Shown here piece by piece: positions 4,550-39,346 of a stretch of DNA of 64,000 nt; position 1 is the stretch's first letter; the number at the start of each line of letters is the position of its first letter. The position numbers were made by a program, and so were the translations under genes. Source of the stretch: Pararhizobium mangrovi (GTDB taxonomy: Bacteria; Pseudomonadota; Alphaproteobacteria; Rhizobiales; Rhizobiaceae); NCBI RefSeq assembly GCF_006516965.1, contig NZ_VHLH01000010.1, positions 1 through 64,000 on the forward strand, read 5' to 3'. The notes below the pieces were generated by a model, which saw nothing but the letters and a program-made list of their open reading frames with translations, ran no database searches and was not told the DNA's origin.

Positions 4550-7114
4550 ATGGTCGATAAGCAGCACAATCTCGACGGATCGAACGGGCGCGACGGATCG
4601 AACGGGAAGCCCGAAATGGGCGACGACGATCCGCTCGCCGAACTCGCCCGGATCGTCGGCTACGAGCAGGATCCGGCGGCTCGGGGCAGGGCGGACGAGC
4701 CGGTCGATCTCGACGACGAACTGATGCGCGAACTCGATACGGGGGACCATGCACCCTCGCTCGACGCCCCCGACGATGCTCGTTCTTTCGGTGAGCGACG
4801 CGACGGAGATCGGTTCGAGGCTGCGAGCGTTCCGGCTGTCGAGCCATCCGCTTTCGAGCCGTCGACTGCCGATCCGCGCGCCAGCGCCGACGATCTCATG
4901 ACGCTTTCGCTCGAGGAAGACCTCGAGCGCGCCTTCGACGTATCGGACGAGCCCGAGAGCGAGCCGGTTGATCATGGATCGATTGACGCTTTCGCAGTGG
5001 AGGCCGCCCCGGAGCCGCTTGGCGCGGAGCCGTTAGACCTTCGCCACGACGAGGACGAACGGCCGTCCTCGATGGACGAGCCCGTCGCTGCCGAAGCCGG
5101 GTCCGAAGAAGGCTTCGTATTCCCCGGCGCCGGCGAACCTTCGGAACCGGCCGCGCATGAGATCTTCGACCATTCGCCGGTCGCCGAACCGACTGCGGCC
5201 ACGCACGAAACGGAAATGACCCACGACGAAGACGTGGCGGCGCCGAACGCGTCCGTCCCGATCTCCGACGAACCGGCAAGCGAGACGTTCGAAGAGCCGC
5301 GCGCTGCGCAGGCCGCCGATGCGGCACCTGCACGCGACGACGACGATGCGCGGATCGACGATGCGCTGCTTGCCGAGATCGCCGCGCTGCAGGTTTCGGC
5401 TTCAGGCAGGAGCAATGGCGCAACGAAGACCGACCGGAAGAGCGAAACCGCCAATCCTTCCGCGTTGCCTGTGGCTAGGGCTGCGGACGGCGCAGCGGGT
5501 CAGACCGAACCGAAGCCGGCCGAAACCGCGCAGGTCGATGACGATACGCGCACGGTGGCGATACCCGATGTCGGCCTCGTTCCGGTCGCCGGCACGGCGA
5601 AAGGCATCGACTTCGATCCAGCAGCGATCTGCGAGCCGGACGAGGCAGTGGAAGCTGCGCCGGATCTCGGCATTCCCCGCCTGGAAGACGACGATCCGCG
5701 CACCGCGTCCGTCGCCGACGACGATCTCGACTACGACATGGATACCGAGATCCTCGGCCTGATCAATCCGCGCGCCACGAAGGCCGCGGAGCCGGTCGAA
5801 GACGCCGAGCTTGCAGGCGAGCAGGCGCCGCGTGCCGCACCGCCGGCGGAGATCGCCTCGGCGCCTGCCATGGACGCCGACATCAGCGAGCGGGAGGCGA
5901 GCGATTTCGCCGACCTCGAGCGTGCGCTCGACGCACGGCGCTACGGACATCGCGAGGGAAATGGTGCAGCGTCGCAAGGCACGGTCGTCGACCATGCGCC
6001 GAACGGGGCACGGACGGCCGCCGGTGCGCCGAAGCGCTGGACCCGGCTTGCGGTGACGGCGGCGGGTCTCGTCATCGTGGCTGGTGCGGGTGCTGCATTC
6101 TGGATGGGTTCCACCCCCGTTGCGCAGAGCAGCGCCGGCGGTAATGCGCCGATCATCATGGCGGATGCGACGCCCGCCAAGCGCAAGCCCGAGAACCCGG
6201 GCGGCGAGCATGTTCCGAACCAGAACAAGATCGTCTACGACCGTGTCGACGGGTCCGATCCGGACAGCGACGGGAAGACCGCGCTCACCGATACCACCGA
6301 GAAGCCGCTCGACGTCGTCAAGCACAACCAGCCGATCGTCGCCGCCTCGATGGGCGGAGGCGACAACGGCCTGCCCGGCGTGCGCAGTGCTTCGGAGAAT
6401 CTGGTTGCCGACGCTTCCGACGGCCGCTCGTCGCGCCTCGGCAAGGAACAGGACCGGCTTCAGCCGCAGGAGAGCAAGCCTGCTCCGGAAGCGGCGACGC
6501 CTTCGGGCGTCGTGCCACACTACGTCAAGACCATGACCGTCACGGCCGATGGGCATCTCGTTCCCCTTAACGACGGGAAATCGGGTTCGAACGACGCTTC
6601 CGCCGACGCCGACGACAATTCGGCGCAAACGGCGAGCACACCCGATGCGGCAGCGATGGTCACGGGCACGGACGAACCCGCGCCGCTGCCGGATGCGCGC
6701 CCGGGCGGCCAGGCGCAGGACGCTTCGACGGACGATGGCGACGGCGCCTCGGAAGCCGCAGGCGCCGATGCCGACGCCGACGAAACGCAGACCACGACCG
6801 CGAGTGCGGCTTCCGCCGCCCGTACGTCGGACGATGCGAGCGGCGACGGCGACGAAGCACCGGCGAACCCGGGCGGCTACTACGTCCAGATCGCTTCCCA
6901 GCCGAGCGAGGATGCCGCCAAGCGTTCCTATCAGACATTGAAGAAGCGCTACGGCTCGGTTCTCGATGGCGAGGGCGTGGACATCCAGTCCGCGAAGGTC
7001 TCCGACGACAAGACCTATTACCGGATCCGCATTCCCGCGGGAACGAGCAGCGACGCGAGCGATCTCTGCGCCCGGTACAAGAAGGCCGGCGGCGACTGCT
7101 TCGTCACGCAGTAG
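4550..7114 (+). CDS. Large acidic SPOR-domain membrane protein
   Basis: 854 residues. A long N-terminal region (about residues 1-495) is very rich in Asp, Glu, Ala and Pro and is probably disordered and cytoplasmic. One transmembrane helix follows near residue 505 (LAVTAAGLVIVAGAGAAFWM), then a Ser/Asp/Ala-rich periplasmic linker and a C-terminal SPOR domain of about 75 residues (GGYYVQIASQPSEDAAKRSY onward). SPOR domains bind septal peptidoglycan lacking stem peptides, so a role in division or envelope maintenance is likely. ATG 4550 follows GAAGAG. Position between argS and nagZ is typical for alphaproteobacteria. The acidic part diverges quickly and carries no catalytic motif. Confidence 0.88.
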   Translation: MVDKQHNLDGSNGRDGSNGKPEMGDDDPLAELARIVGYEQDPAARGRADEPVDLDDELMRELDTGDHAPSLDAPDDARSFGERRDGDRFEAASVPAVEPSAFEPSTADPRASADDLMTLSLEEDLERAFDVSDEPESEPVDHGSIDAFAVEAAPEPLGAEPLDLRHDEDERPSSMDEPVAAEAGSEEGFVFPGAGEPSEPAAHEIFDHSPVAEPTAATHETEMTHDEDVAAPNASVPISDEPASETFEEPRAAQAADAAPARDDDDARIDDALLAEIAALQVSASGRSNGATKTDRKSETANPSALPVARAADGAAGQTEPKPAETAQVDDDTRTVAIPDVGLVPVAGTAKGIDFDPAAICEPDEAVEAAPDLGIPRLEDDDPRTASVADDDLDYDMDTEILGLINPRATKAAEPVEDAELAGEQAPRAAPPAEIASAPAMDADISEREASDFADLERALDARRYGHREGNGAASQGTVVDHAPNGARTAAGAPKRWTRLAVTAAGLVIVAGAGAAFWMGSTPVAQSSAGGNAPIIMADATPAKRKPENPGGEHVPNQNKIVYDRVDGSDPDSDGKTALTDTTEKPLDVVKHNQPIVAASMGGGDNGLPGVRSASENLVADASDGRSSRLGKEQDRLQPQESKPAPEAATPSGVVPHYVKTMTVTADGHLVPLNDGKSGSNDASADADDNSAQTASTPDAAAMVTGTDEPAPLPDARPGGQAQDASTDDGDGASEAAGADADADETQTTTASAASAARTSDDASGDGDEAPANPGGYYVQIASQPSEDAAKRSYQTLKKRYGSVLDGEGVDIQSAKVSDDKTYYRIRIPAGTSSDASDLCARYKKAGGDCFVTQ

Positions 7115-15287: not shown

Positions 15288-16739
15288 ATGCGTAGTAGAA
15301 GACATTTCGTTTCTTCGCGGTCCCTCCTCGGTATTCTTGGTGCTACGCTTCTCGCGAGTGCTGCGGCCGGGTGTAGTTCGGACGTACTTCGGTTTCAGGA
15401 CGGTCATTACGGCGGGGATGGGATGACGACCTCGTCCATAGCGCCGAATGGGGGCACGGCCATGCGGCCTCCGGCACCGACCGGTTCGTACGCCCGCAAC
15501 GACGCCAACCCGCAATCCGCATCCGGAGGCACCTCGATGGCTCAGCCGCTTCCCGCCAACAACGACGACTATTCCTCTCCCGCCCGCACCGCCTCGGTGG
15601 CGCCCGGCGCCGTTCAGCGCGGCACGCTTCCGCCCCCGGGCAGTGCCAACGATTCGCGTCCGCAGACCGTGTCGTCCTCACAGGCCCGCGCCGCGACCGG
15701 CTGGTCGACGAACAGCGCCATGAGCGTGACGCTGCGTCCGGGCGAAGACGTCGATACGCTTTCGCGCCGCTACGGCGTGCCGGCCGATGCAATCATGCGC
15801 GCCAACCACCTTTCCAGCGCCTCGGCCGTCTCGGCCGGCCAGCAGATCGTCATCCCGACCTATAATCGCGGTGGCTCCGACACATCGAGCGCGGGTACGC
15901 AGTCCGCCTCGGCAACGCCGAGCCTTAGGCCTGGTGACGGCACCCGAACGCTGAAGGCGCCGGAAGCGGCCGAGCAGGTCGCAAGCACGCATGGCGGCAG
16001 CTATACGGTCCAGAGCGGCGATACGCTGACCCGTATCGCTTCGCGCACCGGCGTCTCGATCGATGCGCTGAAGCAGGCGAACGATCTTTCCGGCACCGCG
16101 ATCCGCATCGGCCAGCATCTGACGCTGCCCAGCGGCGCGACGGCGCCGGAAAAGACGCAGCAGGCCACCGAAGAGCCCGCCCCGAAGCCGCAGGCCGAAC
16201 CGGCGGTGAAGAGCGAAGCCGCCTCCAAGCCTGCCGCGAACGAAGACGAGCCGGCAGCCAAGACCGCCCGCAGCGCGCAGTCCGAGGCGCCCAAGCCCGG
16301 CACCGAAGCGAAGGTCGAGGAACCGGCCGAGACGAAGGTCGCGAGCCTGCCGAAGAGTTCGGGCGTCGGCAAGCTGCGCTGGCCGGCTCGTGGCCAGATC
16401 GTCAGCCGCTTCGGCTCGCGCGAGGATGGCCACCAGAACGACGGCATCGACATCTCGGTTCCTGAGGGAACGCCGGTCAAGGCCGCGGAGAACGGCGTCG
16501 TCATCTACGCCGGCGACGGCCTGAAGCAGTACGGCAACACCGTTCTCGTGCGTCACGACGACGGTCTGGTGACGGTCTACGGCTACGCCAAAGACATCAA
16601 GGTCAAGCGCGGCGCGAAGGTGACGCGCGGCGAAGTGATCGCCGACTCGGGCATGAGCGGAGCGGCCGACCGGCCGAAGCTGCACTTCGAGGTGCGCAAG
16701 GACGCGACCCCGGTCGATCCGACGAGCTATCTCGACTAG
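15288..16739 (+). CDS. nlpD: LysM/M23-like lipoprotein, degenerate LytM factor (NlpD type)
   Basis: 483 residues. A signal peptide ends in the lipobox ASAAAGC (Cys29), so it is a lipoprotein. A Ser/Pro-rich linker leads to two LysM peptidoglycan-binding domains (about 145-192 and 236-282), a charged linker, then a C-terminal M23 fold (about 360-483). Three of the four zinc/catalytic positions of active LytM peptidases are replaced: NDGID instead of HxGxD, YGYA instead of YGHx, and PKLHFE instead of HxHFE. E. coli NlpD, which activates cell-wall amidases rather than cutting peptidoglycan itself, is degenerate in the same places. Position after surE-pcm supports the assignment. ATG 15288 was chosen because the GTG 5 codons upstream adds nothing to the signal peptide. 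Confidence 0.85.
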   Translation: MRSRRHFVSSRSLLGILGATLLASAAAGCSSDVLRFQDGHYGGDGMTTSSIAPNGGTAMRPPAPTGSYARNDANPQSASGGTSMAQPLPANNDDYSSPARTASVAPGAVQRGTLPPPGSANDSRPQTVSSSQARAATGWSTNSAMSVTLRPGEDVDTLSRRYGVPADAIMRANHLSSASAVSAGQQIVIPTYNRGGSDTSSAGTQSASATPSLRPGDGTRTLKAPEAAEQVASTHGGSYTVQSGDTLTRIASRTGVSIDALKQANDLSGTAIRIGQHLTLPSGATAPEKTQQATEEPAPKPQAEPAVKSEAASKPAANEDEPAAKTARSAQSEAPKPGTEAKVEEPAETKVASLPKSSGVGKLRWPARGQIVSRFGSREDGHQNDGIDISVPEGTPVKAAENGVVIYAGDGLKQYGNTVLVRHDDGLVTVYGYAKDIKVKRGAKVTRGEVIADSGMSGAADRPKLHFEVRKDATPVDPTSYLD

Positions 16740-32495: not shown

Positions 32496-34484
32496 ATGGA
32501 CGTGAGCCAAGATACTGCGCGGCGGGTGCGAAACGCGCTGGACCGGTTCTGGTGGCAACCACCGGACCGCGAGTTGCTGGCCATGCTGCGCGAGCGCGAC
32601 ATGGAGCGCAACCGAAGCAACATTCGCTGGGGCCTTTGGGCGGCCGTCATCAGCTATATCGTCTACGGTATCCTCGACGGGCTGCTGCTGCCGGACGTCG
32701 CCGAACGCGTCATCGCGACCCGCCTCGTGCTCGGCGCGGGCTTCCTGATCGGCATCGAGCTTTGCATTCGTCTCGGCGTCCGCCAGATGTCGCTGCACAT
32801 CGTCGCCGCCTCGGCGATCGTGATCGGCGGCATCGGCTGGTTCTACCAGGCGATCGGCACCACCCATCAGGTGGCGCTGTCGTATTTCCTGGTTTTCGGA
32901 ACCCTGTTCGTCCTCGGTTCGAACCTGTTCTTCAACTTCAACGTCTGGCTGGCGCTCGTCGCCTCGACGACGATCACCGTCTTCTTCATCGCCGCCGCGC
33001 TCGTCTCGGTCGAGATGAGCCGGAGCGGCGAGATCACGCTGGTCGTCTTCTTCCTGAACTGCCTCGTCCTCTCGCTCTACCTTTCCATGCGTTTGAGGCT
33101 CGAGCGCTACCAGACCTTCGTGCAGTCTCTCCAGGCGCGGATTCAGGAGGAGGTCGCGATCGAGCAGGGGCGCATGCTCAACGAAATGGCGAACACGGAT
33201 CCGCTGACCGGGCTCAAGAACCGGCGCGCGATCATTCGCGACTTTCAGGCGATGTGGAAGACGCTCGCTCTCGGCGAGCAGCAGATCGGGATGGTCCTCG
33301 TCGACATCGACTTCTTCAAACGCTTCAACGATCACCTCGGCCATCAGGCAGGCGACGATTGCCTCCTGCGCATCGCCGGCGCCCTGACGAAGGCGGCCGC
33401 AGCGTTCGACGGCGTCGCCGGACGCCATGGCGGCGAGGAGTTCATCGTCATCTGCACCGCGAACGACGAAGGGGCGCTCGTCGATCTCGCACGGCACGTC
33501 TGCCAGTCCGTGGAGGCGCTGAAGATCGTCCATCCCGCGCGCGACGACGGGCGCGCCTTCGTCACGATCAGTGCCGGCGCCTCGATGAGCAAGCTCGGTG
33601 CGCGACCGGACTTCAACGGCCTGCTGCACGAGGCGGACCGGGCGCTCTACGCCGCGAAGTTCGCGGGCAGGGCGCAGTTCAGCGTCTTCGATGCGGAGTT
33701 CGCCGCCGACGACCGGTCGGCCCACAACCTGACCCATCTCCTCAAGGAAGCCCGTTCGAAGCAACTCGTCTCGGCGGTCTGCCAGCCGATCGAGGATCTG
33801 AGGACGGGAAAGCTGTTCGGCTACGAGACGCTGATGCGGCTCAGCGACTACGACGGCACGATGATCAGCCCGAACGTCTTCATCGCCGAGGCGGAGAAGA
33901 ACGGGACGATCATCGATCTCGGTCAGTGGATCATCGAATGCGCCTGCGAGGATCTGGCGGTGCTCGAGCGTGATGTGGTCATTTCGGTCAACGTCTCCGG
34001 CGTGCAACTCGCGACCACGGGCTTTCCGCTGCAGGTGGCCGATACGGTCGCGCGATACGACCTCGCGCCGAACCGGCTGGCGCTCGAGATCACCGAGGGC
34101 ATGGATATCTTCGCCGAGGCGCAGGCGCTCAAGAACGTCGAGGAGCTACGCCGTTTCGGCGTCCAGATATGGCTCGACGATTTCGGCACCGGCTTCGCCG
34201 GCCTCGCCTGGCTGCGCCAGTTCGAATTCGACGTCGTCAAGATCGACCGTGCCTTCCTTCAGGACTGCCACAGCGCCCACGGAGTGCGCATGCTGCAGGA
34301 TATGGTCCAGCTCCTGCGCAACCGGGGTATTCGCGTGCTTGTGGAAGGCGTCGAGACCAGCGAACAGAAGCAGCTTCTGAACCATATGGACGTCGATCTC
34401 GCCCAGGGTTTCGGCATCGGAGAACCGCGTCGGCGCCACAGCGAACGGTACGCCGCACGCCGGCGCGTTCCGGGAAAGGCCTGA
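32496..34484 (+). CDS. Membrane-bound diguanylate cyclase/phosphodiesterase (GGDEF-EAL)
   Basis: 662 residues. About six membrane helices fill residues 45-200, a short coiled linker follows, then a GGDEF domain with an intact-looking GGEEF (312-316) and an EAL domain. The RxxD inhibitory site that normally precedes GGDEF is missing (AAFD instead). In the EAL domain the signature is ETL (444-446), and the later catalytic signatures NVSGVQL, ITEGMD, LDDFGTGFAGL, and EGVET are retained, so both synthesis and breakdown of c-di-GMP are chemically possible. ATG 32496 was chosen; the frame continues 42 codons upstream without family features. The membrane sensor type was not identified. Confidence 0.9.
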   Translation: MDVSQDTARRVRNALDRFWWQPPDRELLAMLRERDMERNRSNIRWGLWAAVISYIVYGILDGLLLPDVAERVIATRLVLGAGFLIGIELCIRLGVRQMSLHIVAASAIVIGGIGWFYQAIGTTHQVALSYFLVFGTLFVLGSNLFFNFNVWLALVASTTITVFFIAAALVSVEMSRSGEITLVVFFLNCLVLSLYLSMRLRLERYQTFVQSLQARIQEEVAIEQGRMLNEMANTDPLTGLKNRRAIIRDFQAMWKTLALGEQQIGMVLVDIDFFKRFNDHLGHQAGDDCLLRIAGALTKAAAAFDGVAGRHGGEEFIVICTANDEGALVDLARHVCQSVEALKIVHPARDDGRAFVTISAGASMSKLGARPDFNGLLHEADRALYAAKFAGRAQFSVFDAEFAADDRSAHNLTHLLKEARSKQLVSAVCQPIEDLRTGKLFGYETLMRLSDYDGTMISPNVFIAEAEKNGTIIDLGQWIIECACEDLAVLERDVVISVNVSGVQLATTGFPLQVADTVARYDLAPNRLALEITEGMDIFAEAQALKNVEELRRFGVQIWLDDFGTGFAGLAWLRQFEFDVVKIDRAFLQDCHSAHGVRMLQDMVQLLRNRGIRVLVEGVETSEQKQLLNHMDVDLAQGFGIGEPRRRHSERYAARRRVPGKA

Positions 34485-34500
34485 GGGCAGGGGACGGCGT

Positions 34501-34962
34501 TCAGTCCTTCAGGATCGAAAGGATCGTCGGATCGGCGTCGTCCGTTCCGAGGTCGAGTTGCGCGAGCGTCGCGGGCAGCGAGAACCGGCGCGGACCGGCA
34601 CTGCCGGGATTGAGAAACAGGACGTCCCCGCGCCGTTCGTATCCCGGCTTGTGCGAATGCCCGTAGACGACGACGTCGATGCCCTCGGCTTCCGGATCGC
34701 GATCGAGATCGTCGATAGAGTGCAGGACATGGATCCGGCGTGATGCGAGTTCGATGTCGAGCGTTGCCGGAAAGGCGTCCGCCCACGGTGCGGTATCGAC
34801 GTTGCCGACGATGGCACTGACCGGGGCGATCGCGCGAAGACGCTCGATGATTTCGGGATCGCCGATGTCGCCGGCATGCACGATATGGTCACAGCCGGAC
34901 AGTGCGGCTTCGGCCTCGGGGCGAAGCAGGCCGTGGGTATCCGAGATGATGCCGAGCTTCAT
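34501..34962 (-). CDS. YfcE/MJ0936-family metallophosphoesterase
   Basis: 153-residue small calcineurin-like phosphoesterase. Metal-binding motifs in order: IISDTHG (residues 5-11), HAGDIGD, VGNVD, HS in the VLHS strand, and YGHSHKP, followed by NPGSAGPRR. This set is typical of the YfcE subfamily, which hydrolyses phosphodiesters in vitro; the natural substrate is unknown. Convergent with the GGDEF-EAL gene, 16 bases apart. Confidence 0.88.
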   Translation of the reverse strand: MKLGIISDTHGLLRPEAEAALSGCDHIVHAGDIGDPEIIERLRAIAPVSAIVGNVDTAPWADAFPATLDIELASRRIHVLHSIDDLDRDPEAEGIDVVVYGHSHKPGYERRGDVLFLNPGSAGPRRFSLPATLAQLDLGTDDADPTILSILKD

Positions 34963-35149
34963 CGTCCCTCCGCAAAGCGCGCTGGATCACCGAAAGCAAA
35001 CGCCGGGGAGCGCGAAAGCGTTGCATCGGCATCTGCCGACCGGATGGCGAGGAAAGCCCTTCCATGACGATGGCCCGGTCGCGTGTTCTCGAGGTGGGTC
35101 GCCACTCGTAGCCCGGCCGATCCTCAAGGTGTCTGTCGCTTCCGAGAGG

Positions 35150-35191
35150 GAAAAAACCATGGCCGGTCGAAGATCGGCCGGCCATGGTTTT
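35150..35191 (-). terminator. Rho-independent terminator of the puf operon
   Basis: A perfect 14-bp inverted repeat (AAAACCATGGCCGG at 35153-35166, CCGGCCATGGTTTT at 35178-35191) with an 11-base loop. On the minus strand it ends in a run of six T. It starts six bases after the pufC stop codon and should end the bchCXYZ-puf transcript. The rest of the 234-base gap to the YfcE gene shows nothing. Confidence 0.9.
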
Positions 35192-35196
35192 GTCGT

Positions 35197-36939
35197 TTAC
35201 TGAGCCTGTGGCTGCACTTGCGGGTTCGTCGTTCCGTTATCCGGCGTCGCCGGCGGGCTCGATGGTGCGTTGCCATTGCCGTTGTCGCCGCCGTTCGATT
35301 GCCCGCTGCCCTCGTTTCCGCCGGAAGACCCGTCCGGCGTATTGCTGCCGGGCTGTTGCGGGTTCGAAGCGCCGCCATCGGTCGCTGCGCCGCTGGAGGC
35401 GGCGTTCTTCGCTTTTGCCGGGGCCGGCTGTGGCTTCAGGCGCGGCGCCACGTTGCGTGGCGGAATGCGCCGGGTGCCGGCCTGCGGTGGCAGCATGGTG
35501 CCGCTGCGCGTACCCGTCTCGAGGTTCGGGTAGCCGCCTTCGTTTTCGATCTTGACCGACGGCGAAGGCATGGTGCCCGGCTGCCCGATCGCCGGCTGCG
35601 TCCTTTCCGGCCTGCCGTAGGCGGGCGTTCCGGCGCTCGTGCGGGCACGCGGCGAACCCTGCTGGAGGATGCCCGGTTGCGGTTCCGCACCCGTCGGCAG
35701 CATGTCTCCCGTCGGAGCCTGGCTCGCATCCTTGCCGGCGTTCGGCCCCGGACCGTTGAGGAGCGGCGGCGTGCTCATGTTCACGCCGGGCGTCTGCGAC
35801 GGGCGGAGCGCTTCGGGGCCACCCGGTCCATTGCGGGGGATCTGAAGCGTCGCCGGTGTCGTATCCTTGAAGGTCTTCTCGCCGGGAAGCGTCACGTCGG
35901 CCTCGACGACCGGCGATGCGTTGCCGTTGCCCTGCAACGCCGGATAGTCGGCGAGCATGTTCGCACCGTCGAGGGGGCGGGGCTTGCCGATGTGGCAGGT
36001 CGCGCAATCGATCTTCGCCGGGTCGCCGAGATGGCCGAGCTGGCTCTTCGGAATGACGGTGGCGAGCGGCTGCACGAACTTCGTGTTGAGCGCACGGGCG
36101 AGCTGCATTCCGTACCAGCCGATCAGGCGGAATGGCGTCGACTGGCTCCAGTCCGCGAAGGCGCGCGAGTTGTGGCAATAGGTACAGTTCACGCCGATGC
36201 CGTCCGCCATCTGCATCATCAGGATGTAGAGGTGCTCGGTATCGTGCAGCGACATGTGCGTGCCGTCGCCGGCCATCGGCGTCATCGACTGGGCGTTCGT
36301 GCTCTCGTCCTGAAGCAGCCACATCTCGTCAGGTGCGGTCGGGAAGAAATCCCGGATGGTCTGTGCGTTGTAGTGGAAGTTTTCCGCCGAGGGGATGCGC
36401 CCGAGCAGCCCGGTCGAATCGTCGTCGGCCTGCTCGTACCAGTGGTAGGGCGGCATGTTCTGTCCGCGATGGCACGTGTAGCAGGTGACGCCCGTCTGTC
36501 CGACATGGTTCTGCCAGTCGGCGTTGATGGTGCGCGTCATCGCCAGCATCTGGCGCGCGACGATCTTCGTGTAGACGTCGTCGGAGGCGTAGTTCGACGA
36601 CGAGACGTGGCAGAAATTGCAGCCCTTGTCGGGCGCGACCCAGGCTGTGATCGCCTTCATGGTGCGATCGAACTCGGCCTTGCTGACGTCGCCGAGCACC
36701 TTGACGTTCTGATAGGCTTCGCCAGCCGAAGGACCGCCGCTCGCGGCCGCGGGCAGAGATTTCGGAACGCTGCTATAGGGCAGGACGCGGCTCACATTGT
36801 CGAACTGCACCATTTCGCCGGCGGCCGGCCCCGTGGATGTCGAACGGATGTTCCAGGGCATCTGCCAGGGCGGAGCGATGATCAGGAAGACGGCGACGAG
36901 AACGCCGGCTCCAACCGCGGCATAAGGCGTGTATCTCAT
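35197..36939 (-). CDS. pufC: Photosynthetic reaction centre cytochrome c subunit, with long C-terminal tail
   Basis: 580 residues. The tetrahaem cytochrome that re-reduces the reaction-centre special pair in the periplasm. An uncleaved-type N-terminal anchor (residues 5-25) lacks a lipobox cysteine. Four haem c sites are present: CNFCH (107-111), CYTCH (153-157), CTYCH (252-256) and CATCH (312-316). The cytochrome proper ends near residue 345; the last 235 residues are a low-complexity Pro/Gly/Asn/Ser/Ala-rich tail not expected in PufC (usually about 330-380 residues). The ATG overlaps the pufM stop (ATGA). The open frame runs much further upstream within pufM, which is a shadow. Confidence 0.95.
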
Positions 36940-37919
36940 TTCACCATCCCCTGCGTGAGGTCGGCGGGGACCTGGAAGGACGGGTAGGTGTTCTCGTAAT
37001 GGGGTGCGATGCCGTGCTTGACGCCCCAAAGGTACCAGTTGTCGACGACCGTTCCCGTCAGGAGCACGCCGATGGCGCCGCTGAAGGTCGTCAGCACCGC
37101 GAACCACCACGCCCAGCGGTGGATCGATTCGTAGGTCGCGTTGAAGCCCATGGTCCAGCGCCAGAAGAGGGCTGAACGTTCCGCCGCCGTTCCGCGATCG
37201 ACGATCTCTTCCGCCTCGCGCTCGCCGCCGAACTTCGACACGGCGAGGATGACGCCGCCATGCATGGCGAAGAGCATCGTCGAGCCGTAGAGGAAGACGA
37301 TCGAGAGCATGTGGAAGGGATTGTAGTACCAGTTGCCGTAAAGCACCGAGATCGACGCCGTCCAGTTGAGGTGCGGCACGATGCCGAAGGGCGGCGCTTC
37401 GGAAAAGTTGCCCATGAGCACCGGCCGGATGAAGCCGAGCGAGAGGTAGAGGAAGATCGCCGAGGCGAACGCCCAGGAGGTGTGCGTGCCCATGCCGAGC
37501 GCACGGGCGCGTGTGTAGGAGCGCACCCACCACAGGAGGATCGAGGCGGTGAGGAACATGCCGGTGAGCAGCCACCAGCCGCCGTCGTTGAGCGGAACCA
37601 TCGGGTTCAGCCCGTATTTGGCCGCCGGCGGCTCGATCGCCAGGAACGGAAGGTTGCGCACGAAGGCGACCGGGTTCCAGTCCATCTGCGCGGCGAAGTT
37701 CAGCCCGATGATCTCGATCGCGATGAAGCCGCATATGATCGAGGCGAGGCCGGAATAGCCGAGATAGGTGGGGCCGAGCTGCGGATCGCCGATCTTGCCG
37801 AGCCAGTAGTTGAACGCCATCGGCCCGATGCGTCCGCCTTCGATCGCCTGTTCGGGCACCCCTTCGTCGTAGGGGCCGCGGACCTGCGTCTTGGTGAAGA
37901 TGGTGGAATAGCTTGCCAT
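36936..37919 (-). CDS. pufM: Photosynthetic reaction centre subunit M
   Basis: 327-residue core subunit carrying cofactors of the type II reaction centre, with five membrane helices. Family features: [13 protein letters not shown] near the N-terminus, [32 protein letters not shown] with the special-pair and iron-ligand histidines, and the C-terminal [23 protein letters not shown] 37919 (MASYSTIF) was chosen over a start 5 codons upstream. Four bases from the pufL stop. Confidence 0.97.
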
Positions 37920-37923
37920 GGCG

Positions 37924-38775
37924 TCAGCCCCCAAGCCCCTGGACGGAACTCATCCAGGGCGGCAGTTGCAGCAGGAAATTGTAGAAGTACGGCCAGCCGC
38001 CATCCCAGAAGGGCCCGGAGATGATGATGCAGATCGCGCTCCAGAAGCCGGCGTTGATCGCAAAGAAGGTGCCGAGCCGGTGGATGCCGTAGGGGCCGAC
38101 CGAGTAGTAGATGTAGTCCCGGAAATAGGCGTTCTCGTGCTCGCCGAACTTCACCGGCTCGTCCTTCTTGCCGGGGTTCACCGCGCCGAGGATGACGCCG
38201 GCGTGCAGGCCGAGGAACATCGTCGTGGTGAAGAAGAACGTCACCGCCAGCATGTGCGCCGGATTGTAGTGGAAGTGCAGGAACTGGTAGCCGACGTTCG
38301 AAACCCAGTCGAGATGGCTGAGGATGCCGTAGGGAAAGCCGTGGCCCCAGGCGCCGAGCAGAAGCGGGCGGATGACGTTCAGCGAGACGAAGGCGAAGAC
38401 CGCGAAGAGGTAGGCGATCGGCACGTGCCAGCCGATGCCGAGCTTGCGGCAGATCTCGATCTCGCGCAGCGCCCAGGAAAGGAACGCGCCGACGGCGCAG
38501 ATCGTCACGAGCTGCCATGTGCCGCCGTCCTTGAGCGGCGCCAGCGCCAGCCCGTATTGCAGCGGCGGCGGGTTCACGCTCATGGCGAAGATGTTCAGCG
38601 TGTCGCCCTGCGAGACGCCGTAGAAGAGAAGCAGCGAGCCGAGTGCGGCGAAGAAGAGCGCCGTCACGCCGAAGAAGCCGACGTAGAACGCTCCCACCCA
38701 GAAATCGAACAGCCTTCCGCCGACCAGGTTGCCGCCGGCGACCCGGTATTTGCGTTCGAAGGACAGCATGGCCAT
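37924..38775 (-). CDS. pufL: Photosynthetic reaction centre subunit L
   Basis: 283-residue partner of PufM, five membrane helices. Begins with the family hallmark [12 protein letters not shown]; further matches are [47 protein letters not shown] and [19 protein letters not shown], which contain the chlorophyll- and iron-ligating histidines. A GGGAGAAG site precedes the ATG. It follows a GC hairpin that separates it from pufA. Confidence 0.97.
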
Positions 38776-38841
38776 GGCGCACTTCTCCCGTCCCGGCATC
38801 ATGGGCCGGGGCCGCGTGACATTCGTGAATTCGTTCTCGTG

Positions 38842-38889: not shown

Positions 38890-39105
38890 TTAAGCCGGCA
38901 GCACCATGCGCGGAGCGATCGGCGGCATGGCCATCGACTGCTTCTGCGATTGCTGCTGGTTCGCGACCGGCTGCGGGTTCTCGATCCAGTTGTACCGGCC
39001 GGTGCTCAGCAGGATGAAATGGATGAGAAGGGCCAGAACGAGAAGAAAGGTGAACAGCCCGATCAGCGCGCGGCGCGGATCGAACAGCATCCAGACTCGC
39101 CACAT
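38890..39105 (-). CDS. pufA: Light-harvesting 1 antenna alpha chain
   Basis: 71 residues. The short N-terminal segment [14 protein letters not shown], the membrane helix [15 protein letters not shown] with the bacteriochlorophyll-ligating histidine and GRYNWIE after it are typical of LH1 alpha. The last 25 residues are Gln/Met/Pro-rich and may be trimmed, as in other species. It follows pufB by 10 bases, with AGGAGA before the ATG. Confidence 0.95.
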
Positions 39106-39115
39106 GATCTTTCTC

Positions 39116-39346
39116 CTAGCTCAGCATGGTGAGGAGAGGGTGCAGGAGTTCGGAAACCTGTTGCGGGTTTACCGGTCCCTGACCCCAGGGCCGCCAGATC
39201 CACACGAGGATGTGCGCGACGATCGCGACGCCCGTGAAGATCAGGAAGCTCGTCACGAAGAGGCTGTTGAACTCCTTCGCTTCTCCTTCGGTAAGGCCCG
39301 ACAGCGAAATGTGCTCGCTTCCGGGCCGGTGGTGAATGTCTGGCAT
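39116..39346 (-). CDS. pufB: Light-harvesting 1 antenna beta chain
   Basis: 76 residues. The LH1 beta signature [18 protein letters not shown] leads into a membrane helix with the ligand histidine ([13 protein letters not shown]). The N-terminal 12 and C-terminal 18 residues make it longer than most beta chains (about 50-70). The ATG is preceded by AAGGAGAAGGAG, one of the strongest ribosome-binding sites in the window, which suits high antenna output. Confidence 0.95.

Follow-up and report, generated by a model that had tools for sequence, protein, structure and literature searches.

The reaction-centre cytochrome PufC of Pararhizobium mangrovi, encoded in the 64,000-nucleotide stretch of DNA analysed here (hereafter the window), carries behind its four haem motifs a low-complexity C-terminal tail of about 235 residues, and with 264 residues after the last haem it is the longest-tailed among the 94 homologues surveyed. 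Such long tails occur in a minority of PufC proteins but are known, and all members of the clade to which this protein belongs possess one. The reading that we put first, at slightly less than an even chance, is that the tail is an inherited, disordered bristle, whose length is kept while its sequence drifts, and which works as a flexible polymer with no specific binding domain. Such a bristle would probably have been gained before the split from the PufC of Aurantimonas, Jiella and Fulvimarina; its length would have been held at about 190-260 residues while the sequence turned over; and it would most likely act on the periplasmic face, as a hydrophilic and flexible polymer that sets the space and the traffic around the donor side. 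This reading is drawn from the coding frame, the length of the tail, its presence in the whole clade, the purifying selection on relatives' tails and the lack of a Pfam domain, all of which were observed; the disorder (from composition and a low pLDDT), the length as the kept property and the role in spacing or crowding are what we infer.

The pufC gene and its product

The gene is the last of a puf cluster (Table 1), in which it directly follows pufM and is preceded by pufL and by two open reading frames (ORFs) that we take, from their sequences, to be pufA and pufB, encoding LH1 alpha and LH1 beta respectively. Its ATG start at position 36939 overlaps the pufM stop codon in the form of ATGA, and it ends in TAA (35197-35199). 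The predicted product is identified as PufC by its position after pufM, by a match to PF02276 (E 2.1e-101; 339.8 bits against a curated cut-off of 22.4) and by four CXXCH motifs at residues 107, 153, 252 and 312, the last of which ends at residue 316, just as the initial annotation had stated. No Rfam match above the gathering score, which would have pointed to a structured RNA in or near pufC, was found in 34400-37800. Reaction-centre cytochromes sit on the periplasmic side of the membrane, which gives the tail its periplasmic position. On inspection of the sequence, the predicted N-terminal helix has no visible lipobox Cys, so it is presumably an uncleaved membrane anchor; Cys-lacking PufC with an N-terminal anchor of such a kind is described in a part of PMC9640540.

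Table 1. Features of the puf cluster and of the PufC tail, in window positions
Feature	Position	Strand	Basis
pufC, reaction-centre cytochrome subunit with four haems, 580 aa	35197..36939 (stop codon included)	minus	
Predicted N-terminal helix, residues 4-21	36877..36930	minus	AlphaFold2
PF02276 cytochrome core, residues 36-335	35935..36834	minus	Pfam profile match
Haem motif 1, CNFCH	36607..36621	minus	
Haem motif 2, CYTCH	36469..36483	minus	
Haem motif 3, CTYCH	36172..36186	minus	
Haem motif 4, CATCH	35992..36006	minus	
Low-complexity C-terminal tail, residues 346-580	35200..35904	minus	composition, codon use, AlphaFold2, Pfam scan
Terminator-like hairpin just 3' of the pufC stop	35150..35194	minus	folding energy
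pufM ORF	36936..37934	minus	
pufL ORF	37924..38802	minus	
pufA-like ORF (LH1 alpha)	38890..39105	minus	name from sequence
pufB-like ORF (LH1 beta)	39116..39346	minus	name from sequence

Coding status and composition of the tail

The low-complexity tail of about 235 residues claimed in the initial annotation is real and occupies residues 346-580; the interval given for it there (35197-36240) does contain the tail but also takes in part of the cytochrome. The tail contains 17% P, 15% G, 10% A, 9% T, 8% S, 7% Q and 7% N, has an entropy of 3.66 bits versus 4.19 bits for residues 1-345, and includes the run quoted earlier, [20 protein letters not shown], at residues 542-561. Among 339 ORFs in a 464-kb sample of the genome, made up of the window and twenty further stretches of 20 kb each, it holds the 100-residue stretch richest in P, A, G, S, T, Q and N, with a fraction of 0.82; eight other ORFs of the sample, some of them probably not genes, reach 0.68. 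Stretches of 100 residues with at least 72% of these amino acids are also present in two ORFs of the window, 4550-7114 (+) and 15288-16739 (+).

An open frame is in itself weak evidence of coding here, because of the G+C of this DNA and because antisense ORFs also span pufC. Synonymous codon choice, scored with a model whose training set was nine coding stretches from the window (the pufC core among them), gave +43.8 bits for the frame of pufC; of the other five frames, the best two scored +15.1 and +8.4 and the rest were negative; in sliding windows the score stays positive to the end of the tail but is weaker there. Three bases past the TAA lies a strong hairpin with a folding energy of -32.3 kcal/mol (z -6.4), at the place where a strong terminator had been described. 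A strict terminator scan listed no terminator after pufC, probably because the stem takes up most of the T run in its base pairs. Codon use, the stop codon with its hairpin, and the length of and selection on relatives' tails (see below) led us to reject a readthrough or wrong-frame artefact, in agreement with the earlier judgement. An origin by repeat slippage was likewise rejected, as a search for tandem arrays returned none, and one weak, two-copy direct repeat of 29 nt with 72% identity was seen.

Predicted structure and charge of the tail

AlphaFold2 modelled residues 339-580 without structure, at a pLDDT of about 30; since the input held 21 sequences and the mean pLDDT of the model was 48.3, this prediction, together with the composition, weakly suggests that the tail is intrinsically disordered. 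At an E-value of 0.01 no Pfam family matched residues 346-580, which argues against a hidden domain, a possibility that we rejected. By the scaling law for a coil, a chain of 235 residues would have an end-to-end distance of about 11 nm.

With 18 basic and 17 acidic residues the tail is near neutral. All 14 sister-clade tails examined, in contrast, are net negative (-3 to -43), and the PufC tails L003 and L004 (-26 each) and L066 (-74) are acidic as well. These values fit the view that the tail acts as an electrostatic lure, which draws basic soluble or anchored cytochromes and speeds electron capture; for the protein of the window, however, its balanced charge makes such a lure improbable, and the tail of a candidate donor from the same genome is itself acidic (see below). 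The earlier suggestion that the tail tethers donors or extends electron capture thus suits its acidic relatives and not the protein for which it was made.

Tail length among PufC homologues

PF02276 was searched in overlapping sets of genomes. A match was obtained in 15 of 199 genomes from the family of the window, in 55 of 397 from its order, in 18 of 385 from its class and in 21 of 398 from its phylum; one of the last 21 was below the cut-off. After one locus (L071, below the family cut-off and with fewer than two haem motifs) was removed from the 95 found, 94 were left for the tail survey, including two cut by contig ends (L033 and L094); L069, L070 and L094 have three haem motifs each. Fewer than 45 residues follow the last haem in 44 of the 94, 45-119 in 33 and at least 120 in 17, with a median of 48.5. 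The comparison of homologue lengths proposed in the initial annotation, when run, put the PufC of the window at the top; its statement that such a domain is missing from typical PufC is true for most of the 94 but not for the 17 with at least 120 residues, nor for the protein's own clade. In the family of the window, 10 of the 15 PufC proteins have at least 140 residues after the last haem. Among the best 80 named loci by likeness to this PufC, 15 have at least 120, namely five of Aurantimonadaceae type (Fulvimarina, Jiella and Aurantimonas; 187-258 residues) and ten with OmpA tails.

Long tails of other kinds were seen as well. The L066 PufC has an extremely acidic tail of 221 residues, in which the net charge of -74 falls within the last 191 residues; its final stretch contains two Cys and shows little low complexity, and its one profile match is a weak one to the edge of PF02276. 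The tails of L072, L074, L075 and L085 are rich in Gln and Met, and those of L074 and L085 finish with QQM-type repeats, which may make up a coiled coil.

OmpA-family domains at the C-terminus of other PufC proteins

PF00691, a domain of the OmpA family, forms the C-terminus of 11 of the 169 distinct PufC sequences (L062, L107, L121, L126, L131, L132, L143, L149, L154, L168 and L171), with E-values from 5e-12 to 6e-15. Seven are labelled as Burkholderiales, including Methylibium, Azohydromonas and bins that bear the names Rubrivivax and Rhizobacter, two more are labelled as betaproteobacteria, and two are unplaced; strain AAP99 and bins named only Burkholderiales or betaproteobacteria also belong to the set. 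They look like real proteins, because omega over the OmpA tail is 0.05 and 0.16 in two close pairs; in more distant pairs, which are near saturation, it ranges from 0.20 to 1.16. The Asp of the motif that we presume to bind peptidoglycan is kept in six of the 11 domains and missing from five. Fusions of PufM and PufC with OmpA-like domains are mentioned in part of PMC12650329 as relatively rare and possibly due to inaccurate gene models; as far as PufC is concerned, the present set of 11 sequences argues against the latter.

These domains lend some colour to the idea, also raised in the initial annotation, that the tail ties the reaction centre to the peptidoglycan of the cell wall. PF00691 is absent from the C-terminus of the protein in question (Pfam scan of residues 346-580), no Pfam match was obtained at E 0.01 in 11 sister tails or in seven other long PufC tails, and nearly half of the OmpA domains themselves lack the Asp just mentioned, so that we regard attachment to the wall as most improbable here. 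For the PufC of the relatives, judging from their sequences, capture of donors and anchoring to the wall are plausible; neither is supported for the protein of the window.

Evolution of the tail and selection on it

A tree was built from 169 distinct PufC cores, with the tails excluded. The PufC of the window falls in a 12-row clade with those of Aurantimonas, Jiella and Fulvimarina-type genomes and of genomes of its own family, and in each of the 12 rows the part behind the last haem measures 187-264 residues (mean 230.5, coefficient of variation 11%). The support of this clade is 92, below the mark of 95, and the fully supported set (100) comprises 16 rows, as it also includes the four nearest outgroup rows (three Erythrobacteraceae and L095), with 58-62 residues after the last haem; both facts count against an inherited bristle of kept length. 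On the same tree, six changes are needed to account for the long tails without OmpA and eight for the OmpA tails; well-supported branches force at least five of the former and at least three of the latter. The C-terminus of PufC has been extended more than once, by different kinds of arm.

The L095 locus, whose long branch places it close to the Fulvimarina-type clade, is a second copy in genome G296, where it accompanies a pufC of a different clade (L044). PMC3338782 reports for Citromicrobium that the pufC located in an incomplete gene cluster is closest to that of F. pelagi, which agrees with a clade that moves between hosts. The pufC of the window may itself have been transferred, a hint of which is that its genome falls outside the Aurantimonas-like group on the CycM tree.

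Compared with 14 sister tails, that of the window scored no better than its own shuffles in 13 cases; the exception, L014 (p 0.010), was lost after correction for 14 tests, and a likeness of the form PTGD..P.GAEP also failed to beat shuffles, so that homology of the tails at the sequence level was rejected. What they have in common is a like length and, in part, a like composition. Tails of the Jiella group, on the other hand, keep motifs among themselves, e.g. GPAQGTTTR[FY][DN] at the extreme C-terminus.

Among relatives, omega over the tail was 0.03-0.44 in all 60 non-identical pairs (62 pairs in total, from the genus groups g20, which contains Jiella and Aurantimonas, g22, g24 and g136), which shows purifying selection; many of the pairs share sequences, hence they are not 60 independent tests, and they concern the relatives' tails only. 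No close relative of the window's own tail was found for such pairing. As omega is mostly higher in the tail than in the core, the constraint is loose. L239 and a partial PufC (L240) were left out of this set, and a frame problem before the first haem inflates the core dN of L105.

Taken together, the long tails in every row of the clade against 58-62 residues in the four nearest outgroup rows, the low omega of the relatives, a tail that has a like length and yet cannot be aligned, the lack of a Pfam domain and the low pLDDT are the observations that lead us to the inherited bristle. The conserved motifs of the Jiella group speak against a pure bristle, which would not need motifs. They also bear, as does the selection on relatives' tails, against a propeptide, i.e. 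a tail that is cut off to leave an ordinary mature subunit: a motif is kept at the very end of the supposedly discarded part. Disordered tails are in general easily cut; the sequence gives nothing in favour of such processing, which we hold to be very unlikely.

Donor-side cytochromes

No match to HiPIP (PF01355) was found in the genome of the window. Among the proteins that match PF00034 are a small c-type cytochrome in a 138-residue frame, and a second protein (L176/L204; G000:C46:2663-3214 and downstream) that we presume to be a CycM, the profile evidence for it being PF00034 alone. This CycM-like cytochrome has a C-terminal tail of 190 residues rich in G, S, A, D and N, with eight Pro, and with 13 basic and 28 acidic residues giving a net charge of -15.

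CycM homologues with two to three CXXCH motifs and long low-complexity linkers (L209, L213, L214, L219, L221, L222, L223, L228, L229 and L231; also L253, L254, L255, L257, L258 and L259) were seen in 10 of the family's 15 phototrophs and, among the matches listed, in 6 of 35 measured non-phototrophs, of which 19 had been chosen for long frames among those matches. Single-haem CycM with long low-complexity tails occurs in non-phototrophs of the family as well. The multi-haem trait could not be linked to PufC or to its tail, as it follows phylogeny: four changes were counted on the CycM tree, with only three independent pairs on well-supported branches and a median p of 0.5. Nor was there a contrast within a genus among 100 relatives of G019, since all ten members of its genus have PufC.

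Low-complexity extension is thus a common feature of CycM in the family and makes any special claim about the tail of PufC weaker; since it occurs in phototrophs and non-phototrophs alike, tail extension may be a general habit of the family. The main rival to the inherited bristle follows from this, namely tolerated growth without function, in which the free C-terminus of PufC simply accepts low-complexity extension. The extended CycM of this genome and of the family's non-phototrophs, the similar stretches in other ORFs of the genome and the lack of conservation of the window's tail are all as this view would have it; the purifying selection on relatives' tails and the persistence of long tails throughout the clade are not, and we consider it possible, though rather unlikely.

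Discussion

Our search of literature titles and abstracts found none on a disordered PufC tail, and the print record may still hold one. A wider reading, in our opinion an unlikely one, is that the C-terminus of PufC is a reused plug-in point for periplasmic arms (bristles, acidic lures and OmpA domains) with which phototrophs position the reaction centre and its donors, and that in this genome the arms of PufC and of its likely donor CycM would form a pair. If tails and OmpA domains do shape donor access or a tie to the wall, the electron supply of aerobic anoxygenic phototrophs would partly depend on a structurally uncovered region: the PufC proteins of known structure (25 distinct matched PDB sequences) are alike in the core, and at 311-414 residues none comes near 580, so that the periplasmic face of a complex with so long a tail is unseen.

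Compared with the PufC of the window, the CycM-like L176 is also a haem protein with a low-complexity C-terminal tail, presumably membrane-anchored and periplasmic, but has one haem and an acidic tail instead of four haems and a near-neutral one. OmpA-tailed PufC carries its extension at the same place, with 136-146 residues after the last haem, in the form of a folded PF00691 domain and not of a low-complexity tail. The closest counterparts are the PufC of Fulvimarina pelagi, Jiella and Aurantimonas (L172, L096, L099, L101 and L105; L172 is identical to L014, the sequence put through the Pfam scan), which belong to the same family and clade, have 48-51% core identity, and are also tetrahaem proteins with tails of 187-258 residues without a Pfam domain; their tails are acidic, with motifs common to the Jiella group, whereas the tail of the PufC studied here is close to neutral and does not align with them.
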